IMG/VR virus record: IMGVR_UViG_3300042549_005039
Location: 1-33,438 of that record
DNA length: 33,438 bases
DNA from: a virus
Reading direction: 5' to 3' (one strand)
Under the pieces are notes generated by a model. It searched no databases, was not told the DNA's origin, and worked only from the letters and a program-made list of their open reading frames with translations. Position numbers and translations under genes: made by a program. Shown piece after piece: positions 969 to 13,662 of this stretch. Positions within the stretch are counted from its first letter, which is position 1; each line of letters starts with the position of its first letter.

Positions 969-1202
969 ATGGTAACAAAAAGTTTTATATTGTTTGCTTT
1001 TATTGGAATAAGTTGCAAACAACCTCAAAAAGTATGGCATAAAGTACGTGTGCAAGTTTCTGAGGCGGGATTAAAAGATACGCTAAGCGTTATTGTTTCT
1101 GGGTCGTTTGGGCTCGGTTCGAATGGTTCTGTTAGTCAAAATGGGTGCAATGTGTTTGAGAGCAGTCAGGAATGTAAGGTTATTTCAGTGCAGCGCTTAT
1201 GA
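969..1202 (+). CDS. Small secreted or lipoprotein-like protein
   Basis: A 77-residue protein that I do not recognise. The N-terminus has a positive residue (Lys4), a short hydrophobic stretch (residues 6-14) and a Cys at 16. This looks like a signal peptide and may be a lipoprotein signal, but Gly at -3 makes a poor lipobox. The rest is Ser/Gly/Val-rich without a clear motif. It is the first gene of the rightward early array and its TGA overlaps the next ATG. A TTTG box at 933-936 lies upstream, but there is no good -7 box. The start is the only upstream ATG in the frame. Confidence 0.5.
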   Translation: MVTKSFILFAFIGISCKQPQKVWHKVRVQVSEAGLKDTLSVIVSGSFGLGSNGSVSQNGCNVFESSQECKVISVQRL

Positions 1203-1441
1203 CAAACACATCTAAAACCCCGTGGATTATCCGCAATAGTCCTGAATCATTGCTACGAATCCAATCCGATTTAGTCTACAATAGACGCTACACAATAGCA
1301 AATGTATTGAACCCAAGTAAACTAGACCACGAAAACTTTGAACGAATTGTAGCATGTGTAAACGCTTTACGCGGTATTGAAGATGTTGAACAATTCGTTC
1401 AGGATGCTAAAACTTTAATGGGTCAAAATGGAAAAATCTGA
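1199..1441 (+). CDS. Conserved phage hypothetical protein
   Basis: An 80-residue protein of unknown function. The segment NFERIVACVNALRGIEDVE (residues 46-64) resembles a short motif seen in many small phage proteins (Asn-x-x-x-Ile-Val-x-x-Val-Asn-x-x-x-Gly-Ile), usually encoded in early regions. The start overlaps the stop of the gene before (ATGA), and the end overlaps the VRR-NUC gene by 14 bases. It is therefore surely co-transcribed and probably translationally coupled. Confidence 0.7.
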   Translation: MTNTSKTPWIIRNSPESLLRIQSDLVYNRRYTIANVLNPSKLDHENFERIVACVNALRGIEDVEQFVQDAKTLMGQNGKI

Positions 1442-1760
1442 GGATCGCTTACAGGAAGACATCGTACAATATATGTGGAATAATTACCCCGAAACAAGGG
1501 GCTTGTTTTGCTATAATTTGAACAACTCAAAAAATGCGATTGACGGGCATCGAAACAAATTAAAAGGACTTATTCAGGGTCGTTCCGATTTGACTTTGTA
1601 CTGGCTTGGACGCGCTTATTTTTTTGAGCTGAAAACTACGAAAGGAAGGCAAAGTCCCGAACAGAAAGAATGGGAAACGCTGGTAACTAAACACGGCTTT
1701 ATGTATTACATTGTGCGCAATTTGGACGAATTTAAAATGATAATTGAGAGGGTTTTATGA
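1428..1760 (+). CDS. VRR-NUC domain nuclease
   Basis: A 110-residue protein made up of a single VRR-NUC domain, the PD-(D/E)xK-type nuclease fold found alone in many phages. The key elements are visible: Glu10 in the first helix, GRSD (51-54) with the metal-binding Asp, ELK (67-69) with the catalytic Glu and Lys, and SPEQ (76-79) followed by the helix and strand that end the fold. Free-standing VRR-NUC proteins are structure-specific nucleases thought to process branched or nicked DNA. The gene overlaps both neighbours in the early array. The length is normal for the stand-alone family. Confidence 0.9.
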   Translation: MEKSEDRLQEDIVQYMWNNYPETRGLFCYNLNNSKNAIDGHRNKLKGLIQGRSDLTLYWLGRAYFFELKTTKGRQSPEQKEWETLVTKHGFMYYIVRNLDEFKMIIERVL

Positions 1761-1996
1761 GCAACGGCAAAAGCAGGCGAATACCAAGAAAACTAAAAAA
1801 GAAAATTAAAAAGAGATTACCCAATTTTTATTCAATAGATTTTATAAGAAACAAAAAAGAAACATCAAATGAATACACATGTATAAAATCATGCAAATTT
1901 AATTTTCTTGGATTTGACCAAATTCGCATTTGTAAATTAACAAATGAAGAAATATTTGAAAATTGTAAATCATGTAAAAAAGAATATCATAAATAA
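1757..1996 (+). CDS. Basic Cys-containing small protein of unknown function
   Basis: A 79-residue protein with a very basic N-terminus (Arg/Lys-rich to about residue 20). The C-terminal half carries Cys42, Cys46, Cys59, Cys70 and Cys73, including a CKSC pair near the end, which could bind one metal ion. I recognise no family. The start overlaps the stop of the VRR-NUC gene (ATGA). Base use is more AT-rich than in that neighbour. Confidence 0.6.
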   Translation: MSNGKSRRIPRKLKKKIKKRLPNFYSIDFIRNKKETSNEYTCIKSCKFNFLGFDQIRICKLTNEEIFENCKSCKKEYHK

Positions 1997-1997
1997 A

Positions 1998-2153
1998 ATG
2001 AGCAACAATAAACAACAAACGGCAGTTGACGCATATTGTCCAGAATGTGACGCATATATATGTAATGAGCGAGTAACCTTTGAGGAGTGTTGCGACACTT
2101 GCGGAACACCTATTGAATATCACGAACAAACCTACGGAGGAGGTGAGCAATGA
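1998..2153 (+). CDS. Small zinc-ribbon protein with shared MSNNKQQT leader
   Basis: A 51-residue protein. Two Cys pairs (CPEC at 14-17, then CDTC at 32-35) with a further Cys at 22 make a small zinc ribbon. I chose the ATG at 1998 rather than the in-frame ATG at 1944 for two reasons. It lies just after the previous stop, and its first eight residues (MSNNKQQT) are identical to those of the gene at 2341, with almost the same bases. The C-terminus (TYGGGEQ) is encoded by the TACGGAGG ribosome-binding cassette of the next gene. The function is unknown; a DNA- or protein-binding role is possible. Confidence 0.68.
   Translation: MSNNKQQTAVDAYCPECDAYICNERVTFEECCDTCGTPIEYHEQTYGGGEQ
2133..2140 (+). 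promoter_or_regulatory. Strong Shine-Dalgarno cassette, copy 1
   Basis: TACGGAGG followed by AGG lies 9 bases before the ATG at 2150, inside the coding end of the zinc-ribbon gene. It is the first of four copies of this cassette in the array. Confidence 0.7.
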
Positions 2154-2344
2154 CCCCACAAGAAAAAGCGGAAGAATTATTTAATAATATTTTTGGTTTG
2201 TACCCCGACCAAGATGCTTATTGGATTGCTAAAGAATGCGCATTGATTTGCGTTAATGAGATATTAATAGTAATTACTGAATGTGAAACTGAATATTATG
2301 ATAATTATTGGCAACAAGTAAAACAAGAAATAGAAAAACTATGA
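2150..2344 (+). CDS. Conserved Bacteroidota phage small protein
   Basis: A 64-residue acidic helical protein of unknown function. The pattern of an N-terminal TPQEKAEEL, a central AKECALICVNEI and a C-terminal YWQQVKQEIEKL is one I recognise from many small proteins of flavobacterial phages, but no function is known to me. It starts behind the first TACGGAGG cassette and overlaps the stop of the gene before. Its own stop overlaps the next ATG (ATGA). Confidence 0.75.
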   Translation: MTPQEKAEELFNNIFGLYPDQDAYWIAKECALICVNEILIVITECETEYYDNYWQQVKQEIEKL

Positions 2345-2622
2345 GCAACAATAAACAACAAACGTCAGTGGATTTATTTGCAGAAAGAACTTTCAATTTG
2401 ATAGAGTTAATGAAAAGGAAATGGGTAAATCAAGAGGAGTTTTTAGATGGTATGCTTAAAGCAAGAAACGAAGCCAAAGAAATAGAGAAGGAACATGAAC
2501 TAAACTTAATTAAGTTTACAAAAGAAATTTTTGAATTAGGTAAATCACATTTTAGTTATGCAATAATAACAAATGAAGAGATTTTAGAATTATACAACGA
2601 AACATACGGAGGTAACAAATGA
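2341..2622 (+). CDS. Small protein with MSNNKQQT leader and TYGGNK tail
   Basis: A 93-residue, charged and helical protein of unknown function. The ATG at 2341 is preferred over the in-frame ATG at 2308 because it makes an ATGA overlap with the upstream gene and restores the MSNNKQQT leader shared with the gene at 1998. Related Bacteroidota phage proteins often begin with a similar NNKQQT(A/S)V segment. The C-terminus ETYGGNK is the translation of the next ribosome-binding cassette (2605-2621). The gene may have been built by shuffling a fixed start module and a fixed end module around a variable body. Confidence 0.72.
   Translation: MSNNKQQTSVDLFAERTFNLIELMKRKWVNQEEFLDGMLKARNEAKEIEKEHELNLIKFTKEIFELGKSHFSYAIITNEEILELYNETYGGNK
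2605..2621 (+). promoter_or_regulatory. Strong Shine-Dalgarno cassette, copy 2
   Basis: TACGGAGGTAACAAATG ends in the start codon of the gene at 2619. It is translated as TYGGNK at the end of the upstream gene. An identical 17-base copy occurs at 2959-2975. Confidence 0.75.
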
Positions 2623-2762
2623 AATATTATTTAAATAAAAGAAATCCACCAGAAAAAAATGATAATGTAATTATATCTAATTATGTAATAGCAATACGTA
2701 TAATCATATTAATTATGTTATTATTTCTAATTTTATGGGCATTAGGATACGGAGGTAAATAA
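2619..2762 (+). CDS. Small single-pass membrane protein
   Basis: A 47-residue protein. The N-terminal 20 residues are polar (MKYYLNKRNPPEK), followed by a strongly hydrophobic segment at about residues 23-43 (Ile/Leu/Met-rich) that should span the membrane once. It ends GYGGK, again encoded by the downstream cassette. The start overlaps the stop of the gene before (ATGA) behind cassette copy 2, and the end overlaps the next start (TAATG). The tight fit on both sides is good evidence that this short gene is real. The function is unknown. Confidence 0.7.
   Translation: MKYYLNKRNPPEKNDNVIISNYVIAIRIIILIMLLFLILWALGYGGK
2748..2756 (+). promoter_or_regulatory. Strong Shine-Dalgarno cassette, copy 3
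   Basis: TACGGAGGT lies 5 bases before the ATG at 2762, inside the end of the preceding membrane peptide gene. Confidence 0.7.
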
Positions 2763-2956
2763 TGAAACATAAAATTAAACTATTTATAGCAAGATTGCTA
2801 TTTGGTCAACCTAAAATTGTGTCTGTTTACAAAGACAAAAACAATAATTTTTACGGTAGTGTAATCCACAATGAAGACGGTAAATCTTATATCCATGTAG
2901 TTAATAAGGAATTAGGAGAGACTGAATATGTTGGTGAAACTGCAATTTGGATTTAA
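2762..2956 (+). CDS. Small hypothetical protein
   Basis: A 64-residue protein with a basic, hydrophobic N-terminus (residues 1-15, possibly membrane-associated). A probably beta-rich body follows (KIVSVYKDKNNNFYGSV, then SYIHVV). I recognise no family. The start lies 5 bases behind cassette copy 3 and overlaps the preceding stop. Unlike its neighbours, its stop comes before the next cassette, so the cassette is not part of its C-terminus. Confidence 0.6.
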   Translation: MKHKIKLFIARLLFGQPKIVSVYKDKNNNFYGSVIHNEDGKSYIHVVNKELGETEYVGETAIWI

Positions 2957-2958
2957 CA

Positions 2959-2975
2959 TACGGAGGTAACAAATG
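2959..2975 (+). promoter_or_regulatory. Strong Shine-Dalgarno cassette, copy 4
   Basis: A 17-base exact repeat of copy 2 (TACGGAGGTAACAAATG), here untranslated because the upstream gene stops at 2956. It places the start of the next small gene at 2973. Confidence 0.75.
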
Positions 2976-3125
2976 ATAATAATCCTATACTTTGCAACAT
3001 CAGTCATTTTATGTCTGGCAATATTATTTGCACTGACAATGATTGTACTATTTATTGTTAAACTTTTTAAGAAAAATGAACTGCACTCCACAAATAACAG
3101 AACAAACAACACTAGGAAGCCATAA
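2973..3125 (+). CDS. Small membrane peptide
   Basis: A 50-residue protein. Residues 2-29 are almost entirely hydrophobic (Ile, Leu, Phe, Val, Ala) and should form one membrane helix. A basic, Asn/Thr-rich tail (KLFKKNE, then NNRTNNTRKP) is expected on the cytoplasmic side. It is supported by the exact copy of the ribosome-binding cassette before its ATG. Its last 50 bases overlap the next gene in another frame. The function is unknown; an early membrane-active peptide is possible. Confidence 0.6.
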   Translation: MIIILYFATSVILCLAILFALTMIVLFIVKLFKKNELHSTNNRTNNTRKP

Positions 3126-3321
3126 CGGATTTTTACGAGGCAACCGTTTTAAATTAAACGGTATTTGGTTTCGACTGGTGCAAGTCCAAGAAATTAAAGG
3201 CGTCTTTTACGGATGGATTAAAAATGAATCAAACGGAAACGAAAAGCGAATCGAAATGAACAACCTCAGAAAATTAAAAGTTGATGAAGTTGGGAATATT
3301 GACCCACACAAAAAATATTAA
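3076..3321 (+). CDS. Hypothetical protein
   Basis: An 81-residue protein counted from the ATG at 3076. A longer version from 3043 would add a hydrophobic leader encoded opposite the upstream membrane gene and looks spurious. The body has a GIWFRLVQVQEI, GVFYGWI, RIEMNNLRKLKV pattern suggesting a small beta-barrel or SH3-like fold, but I cannot name a family. It ends just before the HNH gene, whose promoter lies partly in its last codons. Confidence 0.6.
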   Translation: MNCTPQITEQTTLGSHNGFLRGNRFKLNGIWFRLVQVQEIKGVFYGWIKNESNGNEKRIEMNNLRKLKVDEVGNIDPHKKY

Positions 3322-3326
3322 CTTTG
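3299..3326 (+). promoter_or_regulatory. Bacteroidota-type promoter of the second HNH gene
   Basis: TTG (3299-3301), 17 bases, then TAACTTTG (3319-3326), then exactly 4 bases to the ATG at 3331. The predicted transcript would be leaderless or nearly so. It allows the HNH gene and the tRNA-like RNA to be expressed apart from the early array. Confidence 0.6.
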
Positions 3327-3330
3327 TGCC

Positions 3331-3624
3331 ATGCCAACTATGCCAGGTTTTAAAAAATCCGCTCAAACTGAAAAGAAAAAAGCATTTTCGGGTAAGCGTG
3401 AATTTTATACAACCGAATACAATACAACAGCGTGGCGAAAATTACGTGAAGCTCGTTTAAGGCGTGATCCAATTTGCCACGCTTGTAAACGTGCAATGGC
3501 AAATGTATTAGACCATATAAAGCCAGTGCGATTAGGTGGCGAATTTTGGAATGAGGAAAATCACCAACCTTTGTGCGATAAATGCCATAATTCAAAAAGC
3601 GCAAAAGAAAGGTTTATGAAGTAA
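3331..3624 (+). CDS. HNH endonuclease
   Basis: A 97-residue protein, a compact phage HNH nuclease with structural zinc. Visible features are CHAC (49-52), DHI (61-63) with the catalytic His, GGEFW (69-73), NH (77-78), and CDKCHN (82-87) with the second Cys pair and the last His. The N-terminal W-x-x-L-R motif (35-39) and the C-terminal KSAKE are typical. In cos-type phages, HNH proteins of this form lie beside the terminase genes and act with the large subunit in DNA cutting. Here the gene is about 3.4 kb from the terminase on a circular map and on the opposite strand, so that role is less certain. Its own promoter gives it an unusually short or absent leader. Confidence 0.9.
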   Translation: MPTMPGFKKSAQTEKKKAFSGKREFYTTEYNTTAWRKLREARLRRDPICHACKRAMANVLDHIKPVRLGGEFWNEENHQPLCDKCHNSKSAKERFMK

Positions 3625-3631
3625 AATATTT

Positions 3632-3742
3632 AGTTAGGTGGCGGAATGGAAGACGCAGGGTGATAGGTCTGAATAGGCACGTTTGAAACAGAACTCCACT
3701 ATGGTAGACGTACTTACAGATTCGAATCCTGTCCTGACTACC
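3632..3742 (+). ncRNA. tRNA-like element with an enlarged anticodon region
   Basis: The 5' end AGTTAGG (3632-3638) pairs fully with CCTGACT (3733-3739), with one G-T pair, to form a 7-bp acceptor stem followed by A-CC. TGGCGG...GACGC (3639-3656) is a tRNA-Leu-like D arm with a 3-bp stem and the loop GG. TTCGAAT (3721-3727) is a T loop on a stem of ACAG/CTGT with one A-C mismatch. Between the D arm and T arm there are about 60 bases, against roughly 33 in a class II tRNA. No normal anticodon arm forms there. The best helix is AGGTCTG (3665-3671) with CAGAACT (3689-3695), which has one mismatch and a 17-base loop, and CCA-CTA-TGG follows. It is either a degenerate tRNA-Leu or a tRNA mimic. Confidence 0.5.
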
Positions 3743-3841
3743 GTTCTGTGCTGCGTAAACGTATAGAGTGCCGAGGTTCACTTCTTAACCGATCCTTCTT
3801 AATCATAATTTACCAATGACAGCTTGGAAAGACAGCAAAAG
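3743..3841 (+). other. Unassigned leader between the tRNA-like element and the terminator
   Basis: About 100 bases without a gene. A small hairpin, GGTT/AACC with an 8-base loop, is visible around 3775-3792. The stretch is probably the 3' part of the same transcript as the tRNA-like element. Nothing else is seen. Confidence 0.3.
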
Positions 3842-6130: not shown

Positions 6131-6786
6131 AATAGTTTAGTTTGAAGTTTGTAATCGTTAAATCTTTTTTGGCTGGCATTAAAATAATTAGTGTCCAGTT
6201 CACAAGCGTAAAAATCAAAGCCTTCCATATCTGCTGCAATACGGCTGCTGCCTGACCCCAAATGAGTATCTAAAATTTTGTCGTTTGGTTTTGCGTAGTT
6301 TTGTAAAAGCCAACGGTATAATGCGACTGGCTTTTGAGTGGGGTGAATACGAAATTCTTTATTTTTCATATCTTGCTGAAACATTCCATTCCATCTGTAT
6401 TGAAATTTTCTAACTGCAGATGTGAATGAAGTATAAGCTAATTCGCAATCCGCAAAATCGGAATTTCCGTTTATTTTATCCCACACAATCCAACAACTAC
6501 TATTTGAACGTGGTATATTTTCAATGAAATGATTTGCCCCCCAAATAATTTGATTTTTTGAAACTCGTTTTAATTCGATAAAATATTCATAAGATTCGGG
6601 TTCTTTGTCAAATCCGCTAAATGGTTTATAATTTTTTGCAATTGATAATTTGCCACGTGTATGATTTCTACTTCCATCTTCACCAATCCCATACGGAGGG
6701 TCAACAATTGCCAACTCAAAATAACTATCAGAGAACTGGCTCATGTATTCCATGCAATCCATATTTTTTACTTCTGAAATTCTCAT
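6127..6786 (-). CDS. DNA adenine/cytosine-N4 methyltransferase, DPPY type
   Basis: A 219-residue methyltransferase of the N4/N6 class. It has DPPY (29-32) near the N-terminus, HPTQKP (148-153) and the SAM-binding DTHLGSGS (173-180) near the C-terminus, which is the beta-class order. All key residues are present. It transfers a methyl group from S-adenosylmethionine to an amino group of adenine or cytosine in DNA. No restriction enzyme gene lies nearby, so it is an orphan and probably protects phage DNA from host restriction. It is the second of two adjacent methyltransferase genes and starts 2 bases after the first stops. The specificity cannot be read from sequence. Confidence 0.92.
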   Translation of the reverse strand: MRISEVKNMDCMEYMSQFSDSYFELAIVDPPYGIGEDGSRNHTRGKLSIAKNYKPFSGFDKEPESYEYFIELKRVSKNQIIWGANHFIENIPRSNSSCWIVWDKINGNSDFADCELAYTSFTSAVRKFQYRWNGMFQQDMKNKEFRIHPTQKPVALYRWLLQNYAKPNDKILDTHLGSGSSRIAADMEGFDFYACELDTNYFNASQKRFNDYKLQTKLL

Positions 6787-12727: not shown

Positions 12728-12758
12728 CAAAAATAACAAAAAATTTGTCAATATCAAA
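12728..12758 (-). promoter_or_regulatory. Promoter of the ssb operon
   Basis: On the minus strand TTTG (12755-12758), 19 bases, then TATTTTTG (12728-12735), then 4 bases to the ATG at 12723. Both boxes fit the Bacteroidota consensus. The promoter interlocks with the opposite promoter of the nuclease gene. Confidence 0.75.
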
Positions 12759-12780: not shown

Positions 12781-13662
12781 ATGGTACAAGAAAATTTTTA
12801 CGATTATCACGCCGACAATAAACGAATCGGCAAGTCAGGGTTAGACTTAATCAACAAGAGCCCATTGAAGTATTATTTTGAGCGAATTTGGGAAGGTCGC
12901 ACACCGCTCGACACTAAGGCGCTTAGATTAGGTAAATTTTATCACGCTTATTTATTTGAGCCTGAGCGTTTGAGTTTGGATTTTTATATCCTTAAAGAAC
13001 GCGCGGTTATGGCTCAAATTGGCGGGGCGAAACCACGTGCAACAAACGCTTACAAAGAGTGGCTAGCAAATGAGGTTGAGGAATGCGGTATCAAAACAAT
13101 GGTTTCAGAAGATTACGCAGATTTAGCGCAACCAATGAAAGACGCGTTACTCAGAAACCCATCAATTGCAGCATTGTTGAATCATGCAGGGGAATGCGAA
13201 AAAACGGTACTTTGGGAAACACGCGACGGCGTTAAAATGAAATCGAAGTTGGATAAGTACATTGCCGAGTTTCGAAGCGATTTGCCTGAATTAGACGAGT
13301 TGAACGGCCGCGAAGTAATTATCGATTACAAAACAACTGAGGACGCTGGTACGGGCTTTTTGAAATCCGCTTATAAGTACCGCTACGATGTGCAAAATGC
13401 AATGTATATCGACTCTATGGGCGGCGACGATGTTAGATTCATTTTTATCGTACAAGAAAAATCATTCCCGTATTTGGCGAAAATCTATCAACTTAGCGAA
13501 GAGGACATTGAACGAGCTCGCGAAATTTACCTTTGTGATGTTGAAAAATACAAAAGTTGTATGGAAAAATTTGAGGCAACTGGAGACGTTTTCGCATCGT
13601 TTGAAGGGTACGAAAACGAAAAAGAAATTAACACATTGTTTTTACCAAGTTGGGAGAGATGA
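12781..13662 (+). CDS. RecE/YqaJ-like PD-(D/E)xK exonuclease (DUF3799 type)
   Basis: A 293-residue nuclease from the ATG at 12781; an upstream in-frame start at 12745 would run through the promoter and is rejected. Visible features are GKFYHAYLFEP (51-61) with the conserved His, KSKLD (154-158) with the metal-binding Asp, IDYKTT (181-186) with the catalytic Asp/Lys pair, and YDVQNAMY (202-209). These fit RecE-like exonucleases that chew 5' ends to leave 3' single strands for annealing. It heads the rightward recombination operon, divergent from ssb. No RecT or Erf homologue is obvious next to it; the partner annealing protein may be one of the unrecognised genes downstream. Confidence 0.88.
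   Translation: MVQENFYDYHADNKRIGKSGLDLINKSPLKYYFERIWEGRTPLDTKALRLGKFYHAYLFEPERLSLDFYILKERAVMAQIGGAKPRATNAYKEWLANEVEECGIKTMVSEDYADLAQPMKDALLRNPSIAALLNHAGECEKTVLWETRDGVKMKSKLDKYIAEFRSDLPELDELNGREVIIDYKTTEDAGTGFLKSAYKYRYDVQNAMYIDSMGGDDVRFIFIVQEKSFPYLAKIYQLSEEDIERAREIYLCDVEKYKSCMEKFEATGDVFASFEGYENEKEINTLFLPSWER

Follow-up and report, generated by a model that had tools for sequence, protein, structure and literature searches.

A candidate reusable gene junction with a strong Shine-Dalgarno site in small-gene arrays of probable Bacteroidota phages

Bacteroidota are the textbook case of bacteria in which an intact anti-Shine-Dalgarno sequence is kept and left unused. In lambdoid phages, short shared DNA at module borders coincides with the breakpoints of mosaicism; the junction described here differs from those boundary sequences in that the shared stretch also serves as a start signal and encodes the end of a protein. 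The rpsU gene of Flavobacteriales carries an extended Shine-Dalgarno (SD) sequence of 9-13 bp with pairing energies of −14 to −21 kcal/mol, typically below −13, through which bS21 is autoregulated (PMC9976891). The Start-Associated Sequences (SAS) of cluster K mycobacteriophages, GGGATAGGAGCCC, belong to a single phage cluster whose host uses SD sequences (PMC3203893). Finally, freshwater Bacteroidota phages that encode bS21 have been proposed to interfere with translation initiation, with a role in late, structural genes (PMC9723584).

The junction that we describe, GGAGGTAACAAATGA, is like SAS a short conserved repeat with an SD core, located just 5' of some non-structural genes, nearly always in one orientation, missing from the host genome and conserved beyond the bases that pair with 16S rRNA (PMC3203893). 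Since the sequence differs from GGGATAGGAGCCC, it is only analogous to SAS and is not a SAS. It also differs in usually lying within the last codons of the upstream gene with a stop/start overlap, in belonging to an SD-poor host phylum, in spanning contigs of about 4 to 180 kb and in having an SD-less sister. With the rpsU SD (PMC9976891) it shares the exceptional presence of a strong SD in an SD-avoiding phylum, and it may likewise respond to the state of the 16S tail; unlike that SD, it precedes phage genes, many rather than one, and mostly forms a 6-bp helix of about −11 kcal/mol, a single site (2133) reaching the rpsU range. The bS21-encoding phages (PMC9723584) share its habitat and host phylum, but the junctions serve small-gene arrays, and bS21 is encoded in 2 of 46 SD-junction records and not by the phage studied here.

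Four consecutive gene starts with strong SD sites

The window, that is the whole stretch of 33,438 bases that was analysed, carries the packaging and head genes of a tailed phage on the minus strand (terminase, portal, protease, major head protein), has a GC content of 36.5% and contains a small-gene array on the plus strand, at about 970-3620, which from its position may be expressed early. The sequence-only reading had claimed four cassette starts in this array, and they are real: TACGGAGG occurs at 2133, 2605, 2748 and 2959 (+), at consecutive gene starts, with its GGAGG 6-9 nt 5' of the ATG codons at 2150, 2619, 2762 and 2973. For the whole window 0.26 copies were expected, with a maximum of 2 in 100 dinucleotide shuffles; a fifth copy, at 6692 (+), lies within a minus-strand methyltransferase gene, away from any start. 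GGAGG as such was not over-represented (13 in the window against 18.6 expected), and the enrichment is thus specific to these four starts. The identical 17-base block that had been pointed out was found as well, TACGGAGGTAACAAATG being present at 2605-2621 and 2959-2975, and the identity reaches 22 nt (2601-2622 and 2955-2976).

Junction 1 (2133..2152, +; TACGGAGGAGGTGAGCAATG) holds two overlapping GGAGG (CGGAGGAGGTGA) followed by a TGAGCA spacer. It encodes the end ...HEQTYGGGEQ* of a 51-aa gene (1998..2153, +), whose TGA is overlapped by the ATG at 2150 of a 64-aa gene (MTPQEKAEEL...; 2150..2344, +) of a type seen in other phages with or without an SD. The 51-aa product, made of an MSNNKQQTAVD N-terminal block, a CxxC-type core with a weak Zn-ribbon match below the cut-off, and a YGGGEQ C-terminal tail, resembles a chimera built from the junction-carrier family described below. 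The next gene (2341..2622, +; 93 aa) is a member of that family (KQTAVEW...QAKEMEK...YYNETYGGNK). Its own start has no SD (AAATAGAAAAACTATG), and its end carries junction 2 (2601..2622, +; AACATACGGAGGTAACAAATGA), in which the SD, a TAACAA spacer and an ATGA overlap encode ...YNETYGGNK* and start a 47-aa small membrane protein gene (2619..2762, +). The end of the latter, ...LGYGGK*, is encoded by junction 3 (2748..2764, +; TACGGAGGTAAATAATG), and its TAA stop abuts the ATG at 2762 of a second 64-aa gene (2762..2956, +). Junction 4 (2955..2976, +) is a short form: the 22-mer of junction 2 follows the upstream TAA stop, untranslated in frame, and starts a 50-aa small membrane protein gene (2973..3125, +). 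The sites at 2133, 2605 and 2748 are therefore in-frame C-terminal codons of the upstream gene, and only that at 2959 lies outside. The upstream stop overlaps the next ATG by 4 nt in two junctions and by 1 nt in one; stop/start overlap or abutment, which is a criterion for coupled gene pairs, was thus found in three of the four junctions and suggests that these genes may be translationally coupled, junction 4 lacking any overlap.

A repeated gene start, ATGAGCAACAATAAACAACAAACG (MSNNKQQT), is present at 2334-2372 and 1991-2029 in two otherwise different small genes, and is the N-terminal counterpart of the shared tail.

The predicted pairing with the 16S tail extends over 11 bp at the 2133 site (−18.0 kcal/mol) and is limited to a 6-bp core helix at the other three (−10.9, −11.1 and −10.9 kcal/mol); the tail assumed here is the Bacteroidota consensus, which may not be identical to that of the host, and the program differs from that of PMC9976891.

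A Bacteroidota host is likely for the window phage because promoters of a fitting form stand at gene starts, because the carrier family has relatives in metagenome-assembled genomes that bear the labels Sediminibacterium and 'Bacteroidetes bacterium', and also in an unclassified pond bacterium, and because the sequence upstream of the other genes is A-rich. The promoters are three perfect copies of TTG-N19-21-TAnnTTTG, the Bacteroidota promoter form; they abut start codons at 535 (−), 12745 (+) and 12757 (−), and a near form of the motif was not over-represented across the whole window. All three stop just 4-5 nt short of the ATG, which would leave the transcripts with almost no leader or none, and the promoter position suggests that the ATG near 12781, rather than the TTG at 12745, is the start of the exonuclease gene. 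Megablast of the window against phages found no match; tblastn with the terminase found only distant matches (best below 40% identity) in phages of other phyla, which gave no host clue. Portal relatives were close fragments without the small-gene array, no relative with the array was confirmed with the primase as query, and a prophage search of 395 Bacteroidia genomes matched the portal at only 26-29% identity. At 3636-3745 (+) a leucine-type tRNA-like stretch with an odd insert (GGTGGCGGAATGG...GATTCGAATCCTGTCCTGACTACCG) can be seen by eye; neither ARAGORN nor Rfam recognised it, and tRNA and Rfam searches of the window gave no match.

A junction shared by many phages and its SD-less sister

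Looking beyond the window, we found the 18-mer ATACGGAGGTAACAAATG as an exact match in at least 119 IMG/VR phage stretches, in unrelated contexts. The junction GGAGGTAACAAATGA is often extended as ...TACTACAACGAAACATACGGAGGTAACAAATGA, and in most phages the conserved block continues upstream in this form, TACTACAACGAAACATACGGAGGTAACAAATGA encoding a small-protein C-terminus, YYNETYGGNK*. IMG/VR contigs are partly redundant, and duplicates were removed by their flanks; genes were called by a simple ORF rule. The junction is common to well over a hundred freshwater phage contigs, which range from about 4 to 180 kb. The presence of strong SD sites in the small-gene array of a Bacteroidota-type phage is upheld, as a pattern that recurs in many phages.

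Host genes had also been said to use such sites rarely, and as a cassette these were absent from the genomes searched. A 21-mer version of the junction had zero exact matches in 11.3 million genome contigs. When one mismatch was allowed, the 395 Bacteroidia genomes gave 7 matches, no excess over a reversed-pattern control, and six of these were away from plausible starts of such genes. The seventh, TAAGGAGGTAACAAATG in a Bacteroidia genome (L302), precedes a small ORF (about 51 aa; MRKLEPEKIMEILKAKGVDVTVEQ...), which may be a host-genome instance of a mobile-element gene with a strong SD. Blastn of a 39-mer junction against INPHARED (50,697 phage records) returned chance-level partial matches only, and tblastn of a family member gave no match. 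A 69-aa query composed from pieces had matches in Staphylococcus among phages, which we set aside as meaningless since the query was stitched together. In one locus (L020), from a contig whose name differs in type from those of the metagenome contigs, the 60 of 67.6 kb that we examined contained phage-like genes only and no host flanks.

The family that carries the junction has three conserved blocks, KQTAVEW...QAKEMEKEQI...EQYYNET(F/Y), with variable sequence between them. It was sampled by its codon-degenerate middle motif, QAKEMEK(E/Q)QI, a search that is blind to the SD, and neither Pfam nor PHROGs gave a convincing match to it. Conservation at the DNA level covers each of the three blocks, whose codons are unlike those in the rest of the same genes: GCC accounts for 86% of the Ala codons in the middle block and for 10% in the variable parts. 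The family looks like a shuffled and diversified one. Its members are often tandem paralogues, at many loci between L004 and L289 (for instance L079:12668-12880 and L117:652-1336).

GGAGG is present in 24 of 133 family tails, a tally that includes members from loci fetched otherwise. Among the tails without an SD, YYNETFKSE* is the most frequent; TAAGATG or TAGAATG comes after it, and it forms a second junction, ...TTTAAATCAGAATAAGATG. In AAATCAGAATAAGATG this junction has A at −3, −6, −12 and −13, the positions reported as start determinants for F. johnsoniae (PMC9976891); the SD junction has C at −3 and T at −6. The SD-less form is conserved equally, GAAACCTTTAAATCAGAATAAGATG (L318-L390 and others) being an exact 25-mer in at least 120 stretches. 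The two junctions exclude each other: among 392 loci, the SD junction was found in 166 and the SD-less KSE junction in 139, with no locus carrying both; the loci are contig pieces, and for each of them the other junction is taken as absent on the basis of at most about 15 kb. A sister phage population thus relies, within this gene family, on a junction that is A-rich and lacks an SD.

The same division is seen at the other genes. In SD-junction loci, pairing of −9 kcal/mol or stronger was found at 4.5% of non-junction genes against 1.8% in mock regions (OR 2.6, p=6e-8), and in KSE loci pairing of −7 kcal/mol or stronger at 2.6% against 7.3% (OR 0.34, p=1.5e-10); these p-values are guides only, since the counts ignore shared ancestry. 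SD avoidance like that of the KSE loci is the pattern of Flavobacteriales genomes (PMC9976891). Starts of the carrier family were preceded by GGAGG in 16 of 65 cases in SD loci and in 1 of 83 in KSE loci.

If the SD-junction phages infected an SD-using Bacteroidota lineage in which such sites are ordinary, one would likewise expect phage populations that do not overlap and whose SD statistics point in opposite directions. Only about 1-2% of genes have an SD, however, in the surveyed example genomes of all Bacteroidota classes (PMC10783764). The other genes of the SD-junction phages are mostly SD-less with A-rich upstream sequence, the cassette is not enriched in the 395 Bacteroidia genomes, and no SD-junction phage here is linked to a named host. 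We therefore hold such a host effect to be possible but doubtful; it can be compatible with the explanation that we prefer, working SDs on a reusable junction, and the confidences of the two overlap.

Gene exchange and conservation of the SD core

Clustering of 310 junctions gave 219 upstream groups, 211 downstream groups and 274 pairings between them. A single downstream gene (MKSFLIVNQVKQRLE...) was found after nine unrelated upstream sequences, joined each time through the same junction. Where two SD junctions had the same downstream gene, their upstream gene was also the same in 30 of 145 pairs, compared with 77 of 138 pairs for other borders between small genes in those contigs. SD junctions are thus breakpoints where unrelated small genes get swapped.

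Such breakpoints would equally be expected if the junction were a recombination hot spot at gene ends whose GGAGG has no part in translation. That the conserved block also runs upstream of the SD and that the SD-less counterpart is conserved to the same degree fit this possibility; because of the latter, conservation alone may reflect recent spread and not SD function. Four observations weigh against it. Firstly, the core is more constrained than its neighbour: at fourfold sites within the SD 156 of 158 positions were conserved, compared with 65 of 79 at the Thr site just upstream (p=6e-6). Secondly, the SD also occurs with other prefixes, spacers and protein ends (AAAGGAGG, ACAAGGAGG, GGEQ*), with 47 of 253 distinct sites falling in non-coding positions beyond the upstream ORF. 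Thirdly, the spacing peaks at 6 nt (295 of 460 SD sites). Fourthly, the same phages have more SDs at their other genes. A passive hot spot is, in our judgement, rather unlikely.

The tail peptide itself might also be the conserved element, with the SD as a by-product of its codons, since the tail belongs to a real small-protein family. Codon choice contradicts this: among distinct YYNETYGGNK* ends collected with a codon-degenerate pattern, the two glycines are GGA in 78 of 79 and GGT in 78 of 79, so that about 98% of the ends have GGA GGT, whereas about 8-11% would be expected from codon usage (in long ORFs, 84 of 1102 Gly-Gly pairs are GGAGGT). The tail moreover varies (GGNK, GGEQ, GGDK, GGGNK) around a constant GGAGG, and there are SD copies outside reading frames. 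Given the codon choice and the non-coding copies, we rejected this explanation as extremely improbable.

The distribution of the sites along the genomes points in the same direction as the conservation of the core. In SD-junction contigs, which had been chosen by the junction, GGAGG was present in the start region of 228 of 2430 genes and in 8 mock regions, whereas other contigs gave 14 of 1552 genes and 10 mock regions. In the former, start GGAGG was found on 15% of 60-100-aa genes and on 2% of genes above 250 aa. In 46 whole records, GGAGG-N6-ATG with junction spacers was clustered, usually several per array, and the remainder of these records, up to 180 kb long, had few; the median spacing of SD-junction sites is 270 nt. 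An ATG overlapping by 4 nt follows 97 of 108 SD tails, compared with 28 of 123 SD-less tails. A counter-example is given by four loci (L122, L130, L151 and L045; tail GDDKQ/GNDKQ), which have the next ATG inside the SD (TACGGAGATGACAAAC; TACGGAGATGACAAACAATAAACAACA), with no usable SD, and are fusions in which the tail block is joined directly to the start block by a longer overlap.

A proposed role for the junction

We favour, with somewhat better than even confidence, the explanation that one reusable junction is present here in four copies and that these sites most likely work as SDs in the small-gene arrays of one Bacteroidota phage population. The junction packs the last upstream codons (...TAC GGA GGT AAC AAA TGA), GGAGGU, a 6-nt spacer and an overlapping ATG into 15-33 nt. 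As the end of each gene brings along the start signal for its successor, genes are exchangeable at this point: recombination there swaps genes, and the newcomer would still be translated, to the presumed benefit of the phage. The SD would pair with the 16S tail chiefly when the ribosome that has ended the upstream gene re-initiates at the overlapping ATG, a step for which a briefly exposed 16S tail might be enough. Against a function of the SD counts the behaviour of F. johnsoniae ribosomes, to which an added AGGAGGU brings nothing unless bS21 is altered (PMC9976891). As the sister population has an SD-less junction in the same family, what decides between the two start signals is probably the host group or the translation regime of the phage.

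That dependence on bS21 bears on the idea, raised by the sequence-only reading, that the array is translated mainly when bS21 is limiting, by ribosomes that lack it or have an exposed tail. Strong-SD reporters rise about 1.4 to 4 fold upon bS21 mutation, truncation or depletion, and replete F. johnsoniae is not helped by them (PMC9976891); the SDs are concentrated in small-gene arrays, and the 2133 site, at −18 kcal/mol with the consensus tail, falls within the rpsU range. The three other sites, at about −11 kcal/mol, are weaker than rpsU, and we identified no phage product that strips or sequesters bS21. A bS21 homologue (PF01165) is encoded in only 2 of the 46 SD-junction records and not in the window, and phage-encoded bS21 was rejected as a general cause for this reason. 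The two homologues are at G409:1181-1321 (L313) and G421:82495-82650 (L314). That the other genes of these phages are also mildly enriched in SDs suggests, in turn, SD tolerance and not a special regulon. We consider a bS21 regulon improbable, and give as little credence to the broader proposal that SD junctions are read preferentially by exposed-tail ribosomes, bS21-poor or post-termination 30S, so that the phages exploit or induce specialised ribosomes.

Were this last proposal true, the accessory small genes of freshwater Bacteroidota phages would use a translation channel that their hosts keep closed, and the sister population would avoid SDs and rely on the A-rich code of the host. The occurrence of an SD junction beside an SD-less sister in the same gene family offers a natural comparison for when the hidden tail becomes usable, for example in re-initiation. 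Shared regulatory sequences have reportedly served as bait for anti-defence genes of archaeal viruses (PMC11065993). In much the same way, the junction is a practical marker that flags exchangeable accessory genes in uncultured phages.
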